Source: an uncultured Gemmatimonadota bacterium (GTDB lineage: Bacteria; Gemmatimonadota; Gemmatimonadetes; Gemmatimonadales; Gemmatimonadaceae). From it: a stretch of DNA of 5,700 bases. This document shows positions 1-5,700 of this stretch, piece by piece. The position numbers were made by a program, and so were the translations under genes. A model generated the notes under the pieces. The model worked only from the letters and a program-made list of their open reading frames with translations, was not told the DNA's origin and ran no database searches. Numbering within the stretch: the first letter of the stretch is position 1; every line of letters begins with the position of its first letter. Where the stretch lies: the NCBI GenBank assembly GCA_946887155.1, contig CAMPKM010000220.1:1-5700 (forward strand), read 5' to 3'.

Positions 1-2519
1 ATCTCGGCCGCATCGGGTTGGCGATCTCGCCGGTGAACCCGGACGTCGTTTATGCCATCGCCGACGCCGCGCAGGGCCGCGGTGGATTTTTCCGCTCCAC
101 CAATGGCGGCGTGAGCTGGGAGCGCATGAATTCGTACCAGACGGGCGGCAACTATTACAACGAAATCTTCGCCGACCCGCATGACGTCGACCGTGTCTAC
201 GCCGCTGACGTGATCCTGCAGGTCACCGACGACGGTGGGCGCACATTCCGCCGCGTGGGCGAACTTGCCAAGCACGTCGACAACCATTCGGTGTGGATCG
301 ACCCGGATGAAGTCGACCACCTCATCGTGGGCTGCGATGGCGGTGTCTATGAGAGCTGGGATCGCGGACGCACGTGGCGCTTCGCGGCGAACATCCCGGT
401 GACGCAGTTCTATCGAGTGACCGTCGACGACCTCCAGCCATTCTACCGCGTCGCCGGCGGCACGCAGGACAACTTCTCGATGGTCGGACCGAGCCGGACG
501 CGGACCGTCAACGGCATCCGTAACGCCGACTGGATCATCACCCAGGGCGGTGACGGATTCGGCAGCGCGTTCGATCCGTCCGATCCGAACATCGTCTACG
601 CACAGGCGCAGTTCGGCTCACTGTCGCGATTCAACCTCGCGACCGGCGACGTGATGGGCATCCAGCCCGAGGACGCCGCCAATGGTCCGGGACTCCGCTG
701 GAACTGGGACTCGCCACTCATGGTCAGTCCGCACTCGCCGACGCGCATCTACTTTGCGGCCGAACGCCTGCTGCGCAGCGACGATCGCGGCAACTCGTGG
801 CGCATCATCTCGCCCGACCTGTCGCGCAATATCGATCGGGCGACGCTGAAGATGATGGATCGCGTGCAGGGCGTCGATGCCGTTGGCCGGAACGCCTCCA
901 CCACGCTATACGGCAACATAACGACGATCGCGGAGTCCCCGGTCCAGGAGGGACTGCTGATCACGGGGACAAACGACGGCCGGGTGTCGATCACCGACGA
1001 CGGCGGGACGACCTGGCGCAACATCGACCGCTTCCCGACGGTCCCCGAAACCACGTATGTCGCCAAGGTGGTGGCGTCGAACCACGACGCACGGACGATC
1101 TACGTCACCTTCAACAATCACTGGACGGGCGACTACAAGCCGTACGTACTCAAGTCCACAGACCTCGGCCGGACGTGGACCAGCATCAGCGGGAATCTGC
1201 CGGCACGCGGTGCAGCGTGGGCGATTGCGGAAGATCCGCGAAATCGGAACCTCCTCTTTGTCGGAACGGAGTTCGGTGCATTTGCGTCGATCGACGGCGG
1301 TGCGAAGTGGGTGCAGATCAAGGGCGGGTTGCCGACCACCCAGGTCCGCGACATCGCGATTCAGGCCCGCGCCAGTGACCTCGTCCTCGCGACGTTCGGC
1401 CGGGGCTTCTATATCCTCGACGACTACTCGGCCCTGCGCACGCTCACGCCTGATGTCGTAGCATCGGCGGCGCACCTCTTTCCCGCACGGCCGGCGCTGC
1501 TGTACGCGCAGTCGGCGCCGTTAGGCCTTCCCGGCGCGTCGTTCCAGGGGGCAGGGCACTACCTGGCCGAGAACCCGCCGTACGGGGCCACGATCACCTA
1601 TTACCTGCGCGACGACCTCAAGTCGCGTCGCGCACGGCGCCGTGATGCCGATGCGGCGACGGCGCGGAACAACCAGGATGCCACCATTCCATCGTGGGCC
1701 GACCTCAAAGCCGAGGACCGAGAGGAGGATCCGGCGGTCATCGTCGAGGTGAGCGATGCGGCCGGCAACCGCGTCAGGCGGATGACCGGGCCCGCCTCGT
1801 CAGGCATGCATCGCGTGACCTGGGACCTCAAGTACCAGCCGGTCGACCCGGTGAACGGGCCGCCGTTTGCGATCGACCCCGACTTCCCGTTCTTTTCGCC
1901 GCCGACCGGGCCGTTCGCGTTGCCCGGCCAGTACACGGCGCGGCTCTACACGCGGGTCGATGGCGTCGTCTCGCCAATCGGTGCCCCGATGACCTTTGCC
2001 GTGGTCGATGCAGATCCGGCGGGTTCGCGTCGCAATCCGCGGACGGCAGCCATTCTGGCGAGTGAGTTGCGCAACGTCGAGCTGGAGCGTGCTGCGTTAG
2101 GCGCCGGGGCCTACCTCAACGACCTCACCGGGAAGCTGAACTTCCTCCGGCGGGCGATCGACGAATCCCCGCGTTCCGACAGCGCGCTGATACGACAGGT
2201 GCGCGCGTTGCAGACCCGGCTCCTCGACCTGCAGGAGCGGCTGAACGGCGATCCAACGCGCGGCCGCCGGAACGAAAGCTCTCCAACCGGACTGCTCGGC
2301 CGGCTCCAGATCGCACTCGCGCAGTCGCGCGGTTCGACGCTCGAGGCGCCCACGGAAGCCCAGTTGGCGCAGTTGGACATCGTGCGCAACGCGCTTGGGG
2401 CCATCCTTGCCGAGGTCCGGCAGTTCGCTGAGGTAGACGTGCGCGCGGTCGAAACGGCGGCGGAAGCGGCCGGCATCCCGTGGACGGCAGGCCGGTTGCC
2501 ACAACTTCCGCCACGCTGA
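1..2519 (+). CDS. VPS10/sortilin-like BNR (Asp-box) repeat secreted protein, 5'-partial
   Basis: The frame is open from base 3 and stops at TGA 2517-2519. A TTG at 18 could be read as a start, but the residues before it (LGRIG) already belong to the conserved first strand of this family, so the true N-terminus lies upstream; I infer about 200 residues are missing. Numbered from base 18, seven Asp-box motifs (S/T-x-D-x-G-x-T-W type) are seen at residues 27-34, 70-77, 113-120, 254-261, 325-333, 380-387 and 424-431, ending in the characteristic ATFGRGFYILDD. This indicates a beta-propeller of the sortilin/VPS10 class, often labelled 'glycosyl hydrolase BNR repeat'; I see no sialidase active-site signature. 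Residues about 571-605 resemble a FlgD-type Ig-like strand pair (SDAAGNRVRRM, then HRVTWDLKYQP). Residues about 675-810 are helical and charged. Such proteins are normally exported; their substrate is unknown. Two TTA codons (L502, L694) lie in CGTTAGGC motifs. No terminator is visible after the stop. Confidence -1.
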   Translation, partial: LGRIGLAISPVNPDVVYAIADAAQGRGGFFRSTNGGVSWERMNSYQTGGNYYNEIFADPHDVDRVYAADVILQVTDDGGRTFRRVGELAKHVDNHSVWIDPDEVDHLIVGCDGGVYESWDRGRTWRFAANIPVTQFYRVTVDDLQPFYRVAGGTQDNFSMVGPSRTRTVNGIRNADWIITQGGDGFGSAFDPSDPNIVYAQAQFGSLSRFNLATGDVMGIQPEDAANGPGLRWNWDSPLMVSPHSPTRIYFAAERLLRSDDRGNSWRIISPDLSRNIDRATLKMMDRVQGVDAVGRNASTTLYGNITTIAESPVQEGLLITGTNDGRVSITDDGGTTWRNIDRFPTVPETTYVAKVVASNHDARTIYVTFNNHWTGDYKPYVLKSTDLGRTWTSISGNLPARGAAWAIAEDPRNRNLLFVGTEFGAFASIDGGAKWVQIKGGLPTTQVRDIAIQARASDLVLATFGRGFYILDDYSALRTLTPDVVASAAHLFPARPALLYAQSAPLGLPGASFQGAGHYLAENPPYGATITYYLRDDLKSRRARRRDADAATARNNQDATIPSWADLKAEDREEDPAVIVEVSDAAGNRVRRMTGPASSGMHRVTWDLKYQPVDPVNGPPFAIDPDFPFFSPPTGPFALPGQYTARLYTRVDGVVSPIGAPMTFAVVDADPAGSRRNPRTAAILASELRNVELERAALGAGAYLNDLTGKLNFLRRAIDESPRSDSALIRQVRALQTRLLDLQERLNGDPTRGRRNESSPTGLLGRLQIALAQSRGSTLEAPTEAQLAQLDIVRNALGAILAEVRQFAEVDVRAVETAAEAAGIPWTAGRLPQLPPR
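1519..1526 (+). repeat. CGTTAGGC motif copy, inside BNR gene
   Basis: Perfect octamer in + orientation. It encodes the P-L-G step at residues 501-503 (numbered from base 18) using the rare leucine codon TTA. It lies in the segment between the propeller and the Ig-like region. Confidence -1.
2095..2102 (+). repeat. CGTTAGGC motif copy, inside BNR gene
   Basis: Perfect octamer in + orientation. It encodes A-L-G at residues 693-695 with TTA for leucine, at the start of the C-terminal helical region. It has the same reading phase as the copy at 1519. Confidence -1.
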
Positions 2520-2537
2520 ACGAGGTCCACGCTTCGA

Positions 2538-2646
2538 CGTTAGGCACCCCCAGTCCGCAAGGGCGTCCGGGATAGTCGCTGCTCCAGCGGCCCCGGGCGT
2601 CCGGAGCGGACCCATCGCTGTGAAACAGGCCCAGCCGTGCCTAACG
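2538..2646. repeat. 109-bp segment bounded by 10-bp perfect inverted repeats
   Basis: CGTTAGGCAC (2538-2547) and its exact reverse complement GTGCCTAACG (2637-2646) flank 89 bp, starting 18 bases after the BNR stop codon. Each arm contains one copy of the window's recurrent octamer, in opposite orientations. Inside are a direct repeat GGGCGTCCGG (2561-2570 and 2595-2604) and a small hairpin CGCTG/CAGCG (2577-2589). The segment is too short to encode a transposase. It could be a small palindromic or REP-like element, or two unrelated copies of a dispersed motif. The repeat itself is seen directly; any mobility is only a guess. Confidence -1.
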
Positions 2647-2755
2647 CGTGATCTGCGTCGCAGCATTGTGCTGAACCATCGCCCATCCTCTGGGGAAAAT
2701 CGTCGCTCATTGAAGCGAGCGGCCTCAGCACTCTCCATTCCTCGAGGTACTCCAT
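2547..2755. other. Intergenic upstream region of the small secreted protein gene
   Basis: No convincing -35/-10 pair was found. After the inverted-repeat segment there are two short palindromes: CAGCA-TTG-TGCTG (2661-2673), and CGCTC/GAGCG with an 8-nt loop (2704-2721). Either could be an operator half-site pair or chance. The region ends in a clear ribosome-binding site, GAGG at 2744-2747, 8 nt before the ATG at 2756. The gene probably has its own promoter here, since more than 200 bp separate it from the BNR stop. Confidence -1.
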
Positions 2756-3175
2756 ATGAAGAAGCTCCTGCTGTCGCTCCTCATTGCGGTCGTAGCCACG
2801 CCGGTCATGGCGCAGGATACCGTGACATCGCGAGGCGATGTCGCGCGCCCAGCGCCCACGTTCGAAGGTCTGGTCACGGCCATGACGAAGACGTCCGCCA
2901 CGATCGATGAGTTGACGAAGCGCCAGACGATCGAGGAGGCCGATCTCCAGGTCATCGACACCAAGCCGCTGCTCGAGGGCAAGGGAGACGAAATGCTGCA
3001 GGTCCAGCTGGACAAGAACAAGGACGCCATCAAGCAGTTGCACGACGTACTGTCGAAGCACCCCGCGGTCGAAGCGCGGCTGAAGAAGGAATCGGCGAAT
3101 CCGTCGGTGTCGGAAGTCATCGCCGCCGAAGTGACCGCTGACGGCAAGATCCAGCTCTACTATCGCAAGGTCTGA
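2756..3175 (+). CDS. Small exported protein of unknown function (139 aa)
   Basis: The ATG at 2756 has GAGG 8 nt upstream and begins a classic signal peptide: MKK, a hydrophobic core over residues 4-16, and a likely signal peptidase I site after V-M-A (residue 19, followed by QD). This fixes the start. The mature protein of about 120 residues is hydrophilic and mostly helical (residues 35-105). It shows a pattern Q-V-I-D at 65-68, then a Lys/Asp-rich helix, then a C-terminal beta-like stretch V-I-A-A-E-V-x-A-D-G-K-I-Q-L-Y-Y-R. This layout resembles small hypothetical exported proteins I associate with Gemmatimonadota and related phyla, but I cannot name a family. There are no cysteines, no lipobox and no further membrane segment, so it is probably periplasmic or secreted. 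A strong terminator 50 nt downstream indicates a monocistronic unit or the end of one. Confidence -1.
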   Translation: MKKLLLSLLIAVVATPVMAQDTVTSRGDVARPAPTFEGLVTAMTKTSATIDELTKRQTIEEADLQVIDTKPLLEGKGDEMLQVQLDKNKDAIKQLHDVLSKHPAVEARLKKESANPSVSEVIAAEVTADGKIQLYYRKV

Positions 3176-3220
3176 CGCACAACGGGCGCGGCCCTCACGG
3201 GTCGCGCCGGTTGGTCATTC

Positions 3221-3228
3221 GCCTAACG
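3221..3228 (-). repeat. CGTTAGGC motif copy (as GCCTAACG) at terminator edge
   Basis: Octamer in - orientation. Its last four bases (AACG) form the foot of the terminator hairpin that starts at 3225, so the motif and the terminator overlap. Confidence -1.
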
Positions 3229-3288
3229 GCTGTCGGTCCGTCTGGTGGTTCGAGGGTCCACCACCACCGGGGCCGGCAGCCGTTTCTT
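3225..3288 (+). terminator. Intrinsic terminator of the small exported protein gene
   Basis: The 5' arm AACGGCTGTCGGTCC (3225-3239) pairs along 15 positions with 3270-3284; two of these pairs are G-T wobbles. Inside it, TGGTGG (3243-3248) pairs with CCACCA (3258-3263) around a 9-nt loop. The stem is followed by TTTCTT (3283-3288). It starts 50 nt after the stop at 3175. The GC-rich stem and short U-tract fit a rho-independent terminator in the + direction. Confidence -1.
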
Positions 3289-3538
3289 GTGCGCACCGCT
3301 TGAAGGCGTTGTGACGGTGAATTCAGTGTCGTTGGCGCCTGCGGCGGCACACTCCCTCCCTTGGTCGGCAGATCCGCAACACTGACCTCCGTATCGGGAA
3401 ATGGAGCGGTCTGTCCGATCCCCCCCGGGAGCCGGAAGGCGTCTTCAGCAAAAACCTGAGCGGTCCACGCGTCGCTTCACGTCAAAGCCCAAGTCATCGT
3501 TGCGCGGCCCGAGTGCGACCCGATTTATTGCTGGCCGA

Positions 3539-3579
3539 CTCGTCGATACCTGGACGTCGTCTGCTCGTCTATCGACGAG
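3539..3579 (+). promoter_or_regulatory. 10-bp inverted repeat in the leader of the membrane protein gene
   Basis: CTCGTCGATA (3539-3548) and TATCGACGAG (3570-3579) are perfect inverted repeats around a 21-nt loop. A second CTCGTC (3564-3569) can instead pair with the same GACGAG (3574-3579) around a TATC tetraloop, so two hairpins compete for one arm. The ribosome-binding site begins 11 nt downstream. It could be an RNA leader structure or a DNA operator overlapping the start of transcription; the sequence alone does not decide. Confidence -1.
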
Positions 3580-3590
3580 GCGAGCATCGT

Positions 3591-3597
3591 GGGGGAG
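3591..3597 (+). promoter_or_regulatory. Ribosome-binding site that sets the start of the membrane protein
   Basis: GGGGGAG lies 4 nt before the ATG at 3602. It supports that start over the in-frame ATG at 3401. The sequence GAGCATC occurs at 3582-3588 and again at 3595-3601, a 13-nt direct repeat covering the ribosome-binding site and the base before the start. Confidence -1.
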
Positions 3598-3601
3598 CAT
3601 C

Positions 3602-3997
3602 ATGTTTCGGTTGAATGTCATTCATGCCAGCGCCGTGGGACTTGGCGCGTGCGCCATCGCGGCGCTGCTGGTTCCGGCCATCCTGCTTCGCGGACTCGGG
3701 GTCACTGAAGCCTCTGTCGCCGTCCTCGGCGTCATTCGATTGTCGGGTGTGCTGATGCTGGCGCTGGCGTCGATCCTGTGGTCCGCGCGCTTCTGGCTTC
3801 TCTCTTCCATGGGCGCGGCGACGCTGCGTGTCCTGGCCGTGATCTACGGCATAACAGCCGTGATGCTCCTCGCCCAGCAGGTCGCGGCGGGGCGGGTGAT
3901 CGAAAGCATCATCCCGATCTTGTACGTCATTATCGTCGCGGTGGAATACGCCAACAGCGCCCGGCGCTATTCGCGGCGTTTTGGCTTCACGTCGTAA
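3602..3997 (+). CDS. Small four-helix integral membrane protein, unknown function (131 aa)
   Basis: The start is the ATG at 3602 behind a strong ribosome-binding site; TAA is at 3995-3997. Four hydrophobic segments are visible at about residues 8-29, 37-60, 70-87 and 99-117. They are joined by short loops, with a basic C-terminal tail (RRYSRRF, 121-127) that the positive-inside rule places in the cytoplasm; an even number of helices puts both ends there. The last helix contains V-E-Y-A-N near its end, and the second loop has S-A-R-F-W. There are no catalytic motifs, cysteine pairs or transporter signatures, and I do not recognise the family. It is preceded by its own structured leader and converges on the M48 gene, with 52 bases between the two stop codons, so it is probably transcribed alone. 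Confidence -1.
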   Translation: MFRLNVIHASAVGLGACAIAALLVPAILLRGLGVTEASVAVLGVIRLSGVLMLALASILWSARFWLLSSMGAATLRVLAVIYGITAVMLLAQQVAAGRVIESIIPILYVIIVAVEYANSARRYSRRFGFTS

Positions 3998-4034
3998 ACG
4001 ATCGCGCTGACCTTCCGATTTCACCGTAGCCGGC

Positions 4035-4060
4035 ACCGGCTGACCGAAGTCAGTTCCGGT
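4035..4060. terminator. Stem-loop between convergent genes, possible bidirectional terminator
   Basis: ACCGG-CTGAC (4035-4044) pairs with GTCAG-TT-CCGGT (4049-4060) around a CGAA tetraloop, giving ten base pairs with a two-base bulge. A smaller alternative, AGCCG/CGGCT (4028-4041), overlaps it. The stem includes the M48 stop codon (complement at 4050-4052). There is no T-tract on either side, so the structure is clear but its role as a terminator is inferred from its place between converging genes. Confidence -1.
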
Positions 4061-5555
4061 GGACCGCTGCCTCGTTCACGCGCAACGAGCGCGCCATCCG
4101 GGAACATGCCCGCTCGATCGACACCGCAAATCTCGCCGGCGTGACACAGGCGAGGTAGACGACGTCGTCGTCAGGCAGGAGCATCGTAAACAGGGTGACG
4201 CGTTCCACCTCTCCGGTTACCGGCGATTTTCCCCGCAACCGCACGGAATAGCCTCGCGCCGCACCCAGCGCTTCCTCGTTCGCCGAGTGGTCCGGTGCCG
4301 TAAGGTGCGGATTGATGCTGAGGATCCGCCTCACGAGGTCGTCGGTCGCGTCTTCGAGAATGCCGCGCGGTCGCGACCGATCGAACGGCGCATAGTTGTG
4401 CTCGAGGCTCCGGTTCCACCGCTCGACCGCGTTCTCGAACGGTGCGTAGTAGTTGAAGACCATGCCCTGGGCGAGATGCGGTTCGCCATGGCGTCGCTCC
4501 ACGACCCCGCCTTCCGGAGCGACCGAAATGGCCACACCGGAAGGAAAGACGTTCCAGTTCTCCGGGTATTCGATCGAGAGGAGCGAGTCCGGGTGATTGA
4601 AGCGTACGAACCGGGACGATGGTCGCGGAACGTTTAGAGGAACCGGCGCGGGCATCGGCTCCACGGAACCCGCGGACGCGATGGTAACGGTCGACGGGGC
4701 AGCGGGCGTCGTTCGCGCGCGAAGGCGCGACGCGAGGAATCCGCCCACCACTTCGGCACGGCCATGGCCGAGCACATTGGCCAGGTTTCGAATCCGGTAT
4801 TCGCGATCGGATGGCGCCGGGTGACGCTCGAAAAAGGAACTCAACCCGGCGTGCCGCTTCTGTTCGCGCCGGAGCGTCGCGAATACGGCCGCCATGGCGA
4901 CGGGGTCGTACCCTGCCTTGGCCATCAAGTCCGAACCGAGCGCGTCGGCCTCGTACTCTTCGGCGTCGTCGAACGAGAGAAACGCGGCCTGGAGTCCGGA
5001 TCCGCCCGTGAGGCCGACCATATGGCTCGCCGTCCGGTGGGTCGCCCCCCAGCCGCCTAACGCGCCGATGCCGGCCCGGGCCAGGTAAGCGCGCGACGTC
5101 CGTTCCGTTCCGTGGCGCAGGATCACGTGCGCCATCGAGTGCGCGATGACCCCGGCGACCTCGCCTTCGTTGCGGGCCAGCGAGAGGAGTCCGCGGCTGA
5201 TGAAGAGGGCTCCGCCAGGCAGTGGGTGGGCATCCAGGCGACTCGAGGAAACCACGGTCGTCGAGAACGTGAACGGGGTGTTGGATATCTGGACGCCCAG
5301 CACCGACGTGACATTGTCGATGAACTGGCGCAGGCTGCGCGTGCGGACGGCGTCGAGTGTCCTCTCCAGTTCCGCTGCCGCCATCTTGCCGACTTCGATG
5401 TCCTGTTCAACCGTGAACAGGTTGAAGCCCGATGCGGTGCGCTTGATGGGCACCTGCGCCGGCATTGTGACGGGCACGAAAAAGACAGCTCCCAGCAGGA
5501 GCGCGCGAGTCGTGCGGAGTGCCGTCACCGGCTGCCTAACCACGGAGAAAGTCAC
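4050..5555 (-). CDS. Secreted M48-family metallopeptidase homologue lacking the catalytic Glu, with a C-terminal extra domain
   Basis: This is a 501-residue protein from a GTG start at 5555-5553 to TGA at 4052-4050. Residues 12-34 form a signal peptide (basic n-region, core ALLLGAVFFVPV, likely cut after M-P-A at 33). Residues 45-260 match an M48 domain: the pre-motif strand (DAHPLPGGALFIS, 108-120), the zinc helix, the third-ligand helix (EEYEADALGSDLMAKAGYDP, 199-218; ligand E200) and the HP...DRE motif (245-251). The zinc motif reads H139-S-M-A-H143, not HExxH, so the general-base Glu is a Ser (TCG). The SR usually found just before the third-ligand helix is D196-D197. M48 members such as BepA and HtpX act on envelope proteins; here zinc binding may remain without proteolysis. 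A Pro/Ala/Ser-rich linker (281-314) leads to a C-terminal domain (about 316-493) starting FVRFNHPDSLLSIEYPENW, as I recall from acidobacterial M48 proteins. The only cysteines, C470 and C484, could form a disulfide. No Shine-Dalgarno precedes the GTG; GTG at codon 5 or 10 is an alternative. Confidence -1.
   Translation of the reverse strand: MTFSVVRQPVTALRTTRALLLGAVFFVPVTMPAQVPIKRTASGFNLFTVEQDIEVGKMAAAELERTLDAVRTRSLRQFIDNVTSVLGVQISNTPFTFSTTVVSSSRLDAHPLPGGALFISRGLLSLARNEGEVAGVIAHSMAHVILRHGTERTSRAYLARAGIGALGGWGATHRTASHMVGLTGGSGLQAAFLSFDDAEEYEADALGSDLMAKAGYDPVAMAAVFATLRREQKRHAGLSSFFERHPAPSDREYRIRNLANVLGHGRAEVVGGFLASRLRARTTPAAPSTVTIASAGSVEPMPAPVPLNVPRPSSRFVRFNHPDSLLSIEYPENWNVFPSGVAISVAPEGGVVERRHGEPHLAQGMVFNYYAPFENAVERWNRSLEHNYAPFDRSRPRGILEDATDDLVRRILSINPHLTAPDHSANEEALGAARGYSVRLRGKSPVTGEVERVTLFTMLLPDDDVVYLACVTPARFAVSIERACSRMARSLRVNEAAVHRN
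5055..5062 (-). repeat. CGTTAGGC motif copy, inside M48 gene
   Basis: Octamer in - orientation, the coding sense of the M48 gene. It encodes A165-L166-G167 with TTA as the leucine codon, the only TTA in this gene, in the glycine-rich stretch between the zinc motif and the third ligand. Confidence -1.
5534..5540 (-). repeat. GTTAGGC motif copy at the M48 N-terminus
   Basis: Seven-base copy preceded by G instead of C, in coding sense. Here it is read in another phase (GTT-AGG-C, V6-R7), so it does not give a TTA codon. It lies between the GTG start candidates at codons 5 and 10; its AGG is about 6 nt before the codon-10 GTG and could serve as a weak ribosome-binding site. Confidence -1.
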
Positions 5556-5610
5556 GACGCACGATAGAGGCGTCGCAACGCGCGCAACATTCGCCGGGAG
5601 GAGTGACCAC

Positions 5611-5667
5611 CTATGGCTCGCAATGAGTAGGGAGCGAGCCCGGGTGTCGAAGCGATGTCAGCCATAG
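5611..5667. promoter_or_regulatory. Nested inverted repeats upstream of the M48 gene
   Basis: CTATGGCT (5611-5618) and AGCCATAG (5660-5667) form a perfect 8-bp inverted repeat with a 41-nt loop. GGCTCGC (5615-5621) and GCGAGCC (5634-5640) form a 7-bp hairpin with a 12-nt loop. The two share bases 5615-5618, so they cannot both form. They lie 56-112 bp upstream of the M48 GTG and could be operator or leader elements. No clear promoter was seen. The rest of 5556-5700 shows no gene. Confidence -1.
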
Positions 5668-5700
5668 ACCAAGAATTCGTTGCTCGCGGCGGTCAGGCTG

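Follow-up and report, generated by a model that had tools for sequence, protein, structure and literature searches.

A clade of M48 peptidase homologues that lacks the catalytic glutamate and keeps the zinc-site residues

A 5,700-nucleotide stretch of DNA from an uncultured Gemmatimonadota bacterium (contig CAMPKM010000220.1, positions 1 to 5,700; the whole stretch is hereafter called the window) encodes, on its minus strand, a homologue of the M48 metallopeptidases in which the zinc-binding motif HExxH reads H139-S140-M141-A142-H143 (5127..5141). The general-base glutamate of an active M48 peptidase is thus replaced by serine, and the question that this locus raises is whether the gene is damaged or misread, whether its product still hydrolyzes by other means, or whether a protease fold has been taken over for a purpose other than cutting. 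We find that the loss is shared by a whole clade of homologues, all of which have alanine, serine, or glycine at this site and all of which retain the residues that hold zinc. Such a lineage-fixed loss of an essential catalytic residue would define these proteins as pseudopeptidases.

The gene (4050..5555, minus strand, as are all features of this protein) is an uninterrupted open reading frame of 501 codons, running from a GTG start at 5555 to 4050, and its 501-residue product matches Pfam PF01435 with an E value of 1.7e-21. The match spans residues 73 to 257 (4785..5339), and its score of 77.3 bits exceeds the cut-off of 20.3 set for this curated profile, which matches all 98 members of alignment A2 as well (E values of up to 1). 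Codons 139 to 143 are CAC TCG ATG GCG CAC (5141..5127), with Ser140 encoded by TCG at 5138..5136; the third zinc ligand, E200, lies in E200-Y-E-A-D204 (4944..4958), and the active-site plug motif HPx4R is present as H245, P246, and R251 (4803..4823). The profile match, the ligands (HxxxH plus Glu), and the plug together place the protein in the M48 family. A sequence-only reading of the window had described HSMAH in an intact frame and had located the zinc histidines at 139 and 143, E200 in EYEAD, and HP at 245-246, all of which we recover. It had also argued that, since GAG to TCG takes two base changes, a single sequencing error does not explain the serine. Its conclusion holds for a better reason, in that sequencing error is very unlikely because a second public record (P0002, from source ena, the representative of 13 clustered sequences) has the identical HSMAH and differs from the window protein only at residue 96 (T/S) and at the start residue. 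The two-base argument is the weaker one, as the genetic code allows Glu, Ala, and Ser to be connected by single-base steps (GAG-GCG-TCG, a path deduced for homologues that were compared as proteins) through the commonest residue of the clade, alanine.

To place the substitution among its relatives, we used the best 120 of 639 matches from a search over 5.8 billion proteins. Leaving P0002, a near-copy of the window protein (P0001), and P0121, a fragment without the motif, out of every clade count, the alignment holds 119 rows, the window protein included. Glutamate is missing from column 140 in 68 of the 119 (Ala in 48, Ser in 14, and Gly in 6) and present in the other 51, and we refer to these groups, which are defined by column 140 itself, as Glu-less and Glu-bearing. 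The Glu-less rows come from clusters at 90% identity, and all but two of the 68 are 476 to 525 residues long. The size of this set is a lower bound, as it derives from the best 120 of 639 protein matches. Two shorter proteins, P0069 (402 residues) and P0086 (440 residues), are excluded from the edge-strand, rate, and column-conservation counts given below and from the 99-row tree.

Phylogenetic analysis assigns the loss to a single event. On a tree of the 119 rows built without column 140, one change accounts for both states. Rooted trees were built with every third Glu-bearing row together with P0122-P0125 (21 of 55) and with an outgroup of HExxH homologues that are acidobacterial by annotation or were taken from genomes in the same phylum as an acidobacterial one. 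With 15 outgroup rows (104 rows in total), the Glu-less proteins are monophyletic with a value of 100 in the Shimodaira-Hasegawa-like approximate likelihood ratio test (SH-aLRT); with 12 outgroup rows, after removal of the long-branch rows L002, L005, and L011 (99 rows), 66 Glu-less proteins form one clade with a bootstrap/SH-aLRT support of 100/100. Because the Glu-less proteins form one clade on the rooted tree, one loss of the catalytic glutamate suffices for this sample; no return is seen, and after the loss the site varied among the three smallest residues, Ala, Ser, and Gly. The expectation that close homologues would share serine as a clade is therefore borne out for the absence of glutamate, the shared trait being a tiny residue and not serine itself, and the outcome that would have spoken against it, a set of same-clade homologues that all read HExxH, is not what the 119 rows contain. 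A search with a profile of the clade draws the same boundary: 67 Glu-less matches (including P0002), with E values of at most 6.8e-219, outrank every Glu-bearing one (5e-218 to 4e-193, among the best 120 of 627), and the 402-residue P0069 is the only Glu-less protein to fall lower.

Relatives recovered from a scan of genome contigs read HExxH in 39 of 39 loci, all acidobacterial by annotation except L012 (Bifidobacterium) and L038 (Acidimicrobiia), and so do 17 of the 18 loci (L040-L057) taken from genomes matched by the clade profile, a set in which L040 repeats L001 and some members are more distant M48 proteins. Draws from the phylum assigned to the genomes of L012 and L038 give back the genomes obtained for L001. 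At the level of whole genomes, where E values refer to database sizes different from those of the protein search, the clade profile matched 164 of 199 genomes of the phylum of L001 (best E value, 2.7e-137), 4 of 30 drawn from the phylum of G200 and 4 of 30 from that of G201 (at 1e-60), and 5 of 38 in a class draw (at 1e-90). Viral contigs gave no match, and among plasmids, 170 records have distant M48 matches, none of which covers 80% of the query. The clade is probably one of Gemmatimonadota. As side observations, the remaining locus of the 18 (L054, from the phylum of the genome of L001) reads A-Q-E-M-A-H, a single sequence in which the first zinc histidine has become glutamine and both the glutamate and the NAF motif described below are kept, the reverse of the pattern in the window clade; and the acidobacterial genome behind L001 (G001) has three near-full-length matches to the M48 and C-terminal domains, one of them with an in-frame TAG.

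The clade has kept some conserved residues and given up others. Every one of the 68 Glu-less rows, the window protein included, has H139, H143, E200, H245, P246, and R251, as does every one of the 51 Glu-bearing rows. A simple count puts at 6e-4 the probability of finding the four zinc-site residues all within the 36 invariant columns of the 219 in the M48 region, a rough figure, as the ligands were already conserved beforehand. At the other extreme, of the 47 M48 columns with a conservation of 95% or more across 36 Glu-bearing and outgroup rows, column 140 is the only one whose residue is kept by 0 of 66 Glu-less rows; since this column was used to divide the rows, what matters is that it stands alone in this pattern. 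Strong decay in the Glu-less rows is also seen at D72, R85, Q152, A109, F110, and F225. Two of these positions belong to the substrate edge-strand motif NAF (residues 108 to 110), which is present in 50 of 51 Glu-bearing and 3 of 66 Glu-less rows and reads D-A-H in the window protein (5226..5234, by alignment to I-N-A-F of BepA, 6sar); LPGG, beside the edge strand, is largely retained. The clade has thus given up the catalytic base and the edge-strand motif and has retained the zinc site and the plug.

Constraint on the M48 domain as a whole has shifted as well. On fixed trees, and leaving out column 140 and the four zinc-site columns, the rate of the M48 domain relative to that of the C-terminal domain is 1.22 in Glu-less proteins (95% interval, 0.99-1.62) and 0.69 in Glu-bearing ones (0.43-0.93). 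The ratio of these ratios is 1.80 (95% interval, 1.29-3.04), and none of 400 column resamplings gave a value of 1 or less; in an earlier set of 60 draws, one value was 1 or less and the interval was 1.13-2.73. The M48 domain of the Glu-less clade has therefore lost constraint relative to its C-terminal domain, in which several columns, V377, N381, and A469 among them, show no variation in Glu-less proteins and vary in Glu-bearing ones. This domain (residues 316 to 495; 4071..4610) has a predicted fold like that of PsbP, Mog1, and DcrB: a structure model built from 98 rows, which replaced a poor 29-row model (predicted local distance difference test [pLDDT] score of 69.8), has eleven strands of at least 3 residues between 316 and 473, and its strand-rich C-terminal part aligns structurally to PsbP/Mog1-like chains. 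At the level of sequence, Pfam PsbP matches 3 of 98 members, with a best E value of 0.078, and not the window protein. We also observe that Cys 470 and Cys 484, possibly a disulfide pair of this domain, are invariant in 68 of 68 Glu-less rows, occur in 49 and 50 of the 51 Glu-bearing rows, respectively, and are absent from 15 outgroup rows. At the other end of the protein, residues 1 to 33 (5457..5555), read by eye, comprise a hydrophobic stretch followed by MPAQ that resembles a signal peptide and is modelled at low confidence (pLDDT below 50), which would place the protein outside the inner membrane.

The nearest relatives, which are also the nearest group on the tree, are the Glu-bearing homologues (e.g., P0077, P0088, and P0099, the last of which is named Gemmatimonadaceae). 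They have the same length and 46 to 51% identity over most of the protein (51 listed matches), keep the glutamate, NAF, and a strongly conserved M48 domain, and are presumably active. The best match among solved structures, by sequence (E value, 4.9e-27) and by Foldseek, is an M48 peptidase from Geobacter sulfurreducens (3c37), which has HEINH and whose solved chain of 253 residues is matched over 9-219 only and lacks the C-terminal domain. A further comparison is BepA, the beta-barrel assembly-enhancing M48 protease of Escherichia coli (6ait and 6sar); here and below, statements attributed to papers refer to the passages of those papers that were covered. In BepA, zinc is held by H136, H140, and E201 together with the plug residue H246, a role as active-site plug is described for HPx4R, and the E137Q mutant is dead (PMC7950410), while the edge strand in contact with LptD includes N105-A106-F107 (PMC8423444). 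All four zinc-site residues match those of the window protein, where they are kept without the glutamate. BepA differs in having the catalytic glutamate and a C-terminal domain of tetratricopeptide repeats (TPR), whereas the window protein has Ser140, a PsbP/Mog1-like domain, and DAH for NAF. The window protein scores 82.9 against a cut-off of 570 for the NCBIfam BepA equivalog, and the strands modelled between 316 and 473 argue against an all-helical, TPR-type C-terminal domain.

We propose, with a probability of roughly 55%, that these proteins are a secreted pseudopeptidase family of single origin, descended from an M48 protease with a PsbP/Mog1-like domain at its C terminus, and that they now serve as a zinc-clamped platform that does not cut. 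The M48 core would still bind zinc, with H245 of the plug as the fourth ligand, and would be permanently closed by the plug and non-hydrolytic; as a rigid, zinc-clamped platform it would position the C-terminal domain, which would be the working part and bind a partner in the envelope. The likeliest role would be that of a scaffold, adaptor, or assembly factor, perhaps one tied to the beta-propeller protein encoded nearby. Zinc binding, closure, inactivity, and the binding role in the envelope are read from sequence and model. Several points weigh against this proposal: zinc occupancy and inactivity are judged from sequence and a model; having a PsbP/Mog1-like fold in common does not by itself establish a function; the sample behind the rate comparison is biased, in that its Glu-bearing rows are the ones closest in sequence to the window protein; the retention of LPGG next to the edge strand may leave some residual substrate binding; the link to the beta-propeller gene is suggested by contigs paired by size; and the same organisms may have an active M48 paralogue.

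The sequence-only reading had put forward a folded, non-proteolytic role as chaperone, regulator, or scaffold, and these uses now separate. The pseudopeptidase part is supported, and a chaperone has become the less likely form of it. Such a protein would hold extended peptides of envelope proteins in its zinc cleft without cutting them, in the manner of BepA E137Q or ZMPSTE24 E336A, and dead M48 proteins can indeed fold and bind: a structure of ZMPSTE24 E336A with a peptide has been determined (2ypt), the same mutant is more effective than the wild type in pulling down IFITM3 (PMC9601121), and BepA E137Q retains a weakened activity in LptD maturation (PMC8423444). The retained ligands and plug, and largely LPGG, would suit this use, but the motif located where BepA touches LptD is intact in just 3 of 66 members, F225, R197, and Q152 vary too, and E137Q is dominant negative in E. 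coli and does not restore vancomycin resistance (PMC7950410). Because NAF is gone from 63 of 66 proteins, we consider a scaffold or adaptor more likely than a substrate-holding chaperone of the BepA type, which, taken on its own, is rather unlikely. A regulatory role toward an active M48 paralogue of the same cell, through dimerization or competition for its substrates, has precedent in pseudopeptidases that sometimes regulate active cousins (PMC11266112) and would fit a nearest group of Glu-bearing relatives with the same domain order; we hold it to be distinctly doubtful. Equally doubtful is a version in which a BepA-like His-switch protease became a zinc-gated binding protein. Here the plug histidine and zinc would act purely as a conformational latch or a sensor of zinc, governing which envelope partner, perhaps the nearby beta-propeller protein, is bound by the PsbP/Mog1-like domain.

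That the protein remains a hydrolase with another residue as general base is highly improbable. All zinc ligands are kept, as are acidic residues close by in the sequence (E130, E202 or D, and D204), and all 66 Glu-less rows have an acidic residue at position 252, adjoining R251 of the plug; position 252, however, is Glu in all 51 Glu-bearing rows, and a comparison of the 66 Glu-less rows with Glu-bearing and outgroup rows finds no replacement acid exclusive to the clade in the M48 domain. Those acidic M48 columns that are enriched in the clade (209, 231, 250, and 252) are acidic in 56 to 58% of the Glu-bearing and outgroup rows as well, the remaining four enriched columns lie beyond residue 262, and the edge-strand motif has been lost along with the base. 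Ser140 cannot be the new catalyst when 48 of 68 members have alanine, their commonest state, which rules it out as a nucleophile. As for a decaying gene or a sequencing error, the canonical residue is lost and the M48 domain is less constrained than in Glu-bearing relatives, but the loss is common to 68 rows from 90%-identity clusters, in proteins of near-uniform length, and the ligands are invariant despite much divergence; we give this reading almost no credence. A single-residue error or private mutation is ruled out by the 68 of 119 rows that share the loss and by P0002, the second public record.

The gene neighborhood offers a possible partner for the platform that we propose. Facing the M48 gene across about 1.5 kb is a gene for a secreted BNR/Sortilin-Vps10-like beta-propeller protein (3..2519, plus strand), which is cut by the left edge of the window and most of whose listed relatives have about 1100 residues; among the best 120 of 7999 matches, the relatives with an organism name are all Gemmatimonadales, Gemmatimonadaceae, or Gemmatimonadetes (8 of 8), in agreement with a Gemmatimonadota origin of the window. 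Of the seven contigs that carry a Glu-less gene and span 30 kb or more, four (those of 36,859, 40,295, 72,282, and 988,730 bases) also hold a beta-propeller homologue, with 82 to 83% identity, as compared with none of nine Glu-bearing contigs, the latter being weak evidence within the same best 120 of 7999. Contigs were paired by size and source, leaving out the window's own entry (P0126), whose listed contig size of 8,609 coincides, presumably by chance, with that of P0038 from a different source, and shifting the sizes produced no matches in 120 offsets; two further pairings, at 7,181 bases (same source) and 8,028 bases (a Glu-bearing row, from different sources), are possibly due to chance. 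These results suggest a conserved linkage of the Glu-less M48 and beta-propeller genes, whose spacing is known in the window alone. Between the two genes, also on the plus strand, are frames for a 139-residue protein with a signal-peptide-like start (2756-3175) and for a 131-residue, strongly hydrophobic, probably multi-pass membrane protein (3602-3997, from an inner ATG of a longer frame), with a gap of 52 bases between the end of the latter and the stop codon of the M48 gene, which runs toward it; neither protein has a Pfam or NCBIfam match.

Metallopeptidase homologues that have lost one or more catalytic residues and are used for binding or scaffolding are established in other families and include ADAMs, metallocarboxypeptidase-like proteins, Gone early, FtsHi, and Sonic hedgehog (PMC11266112). 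ADAM7 (HQLGH...H) and ADAM29 (HHLGH...H) resemble the window protein in keeping the histidines and losing the glutamate, whereas many others listed in the same passages have lost zinc ligands also, and none of those described there is an M48 protein; the term M48 is absent from the main text of that review. M48 members with the usual motif are treated in PMC8621943 and PMC7804941, the passages covered of PMC9965338 describe no inactive member, and we found no M48 pseudopeptidase family described in the literature searched, from which MEROPS and subscription papers were outside the scope. The Glu-less clade would thus be a pseudopeptidase lineage in a family for which that literature shows none, with ADAM7 and ADAM29 as a precedent in another family. 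A counterpart within M48 is ZMPSTE24 E336A, in which Glu-to-Ala at the equivalent site leaves a protease-independent function intact (PMC9601121) but which is an engineered mutant of an active membrane protease and not a natural lineage.

The finding also calls for caution in naming, in that seven Glu-less proteins (P0016, P0019, P0030, P0032, P0045, P0055, and P0059) are called "Zn-dependent protease with chaperone function" in Joint Genome Institute annotation and may not be proteases. In the passages covered, it was engineered dead mutants that served to probe the work of BepA and ZMPSTE24 beyond cutting. What selection preserves once cutting is no longer needed is shown here by a natural clade, which lacks the glutamate and retains the ligands and an inhibitory plug and which allows one to ask whether zinc and the plug histidine contribute to structure or switching independently of catalysis. 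Because the catalytic glutamate is lost, the zinc-holding residues are all kept, and a whole branch shares the loss, the clade suggests that evolution has reused a protease as a part that does not cut.
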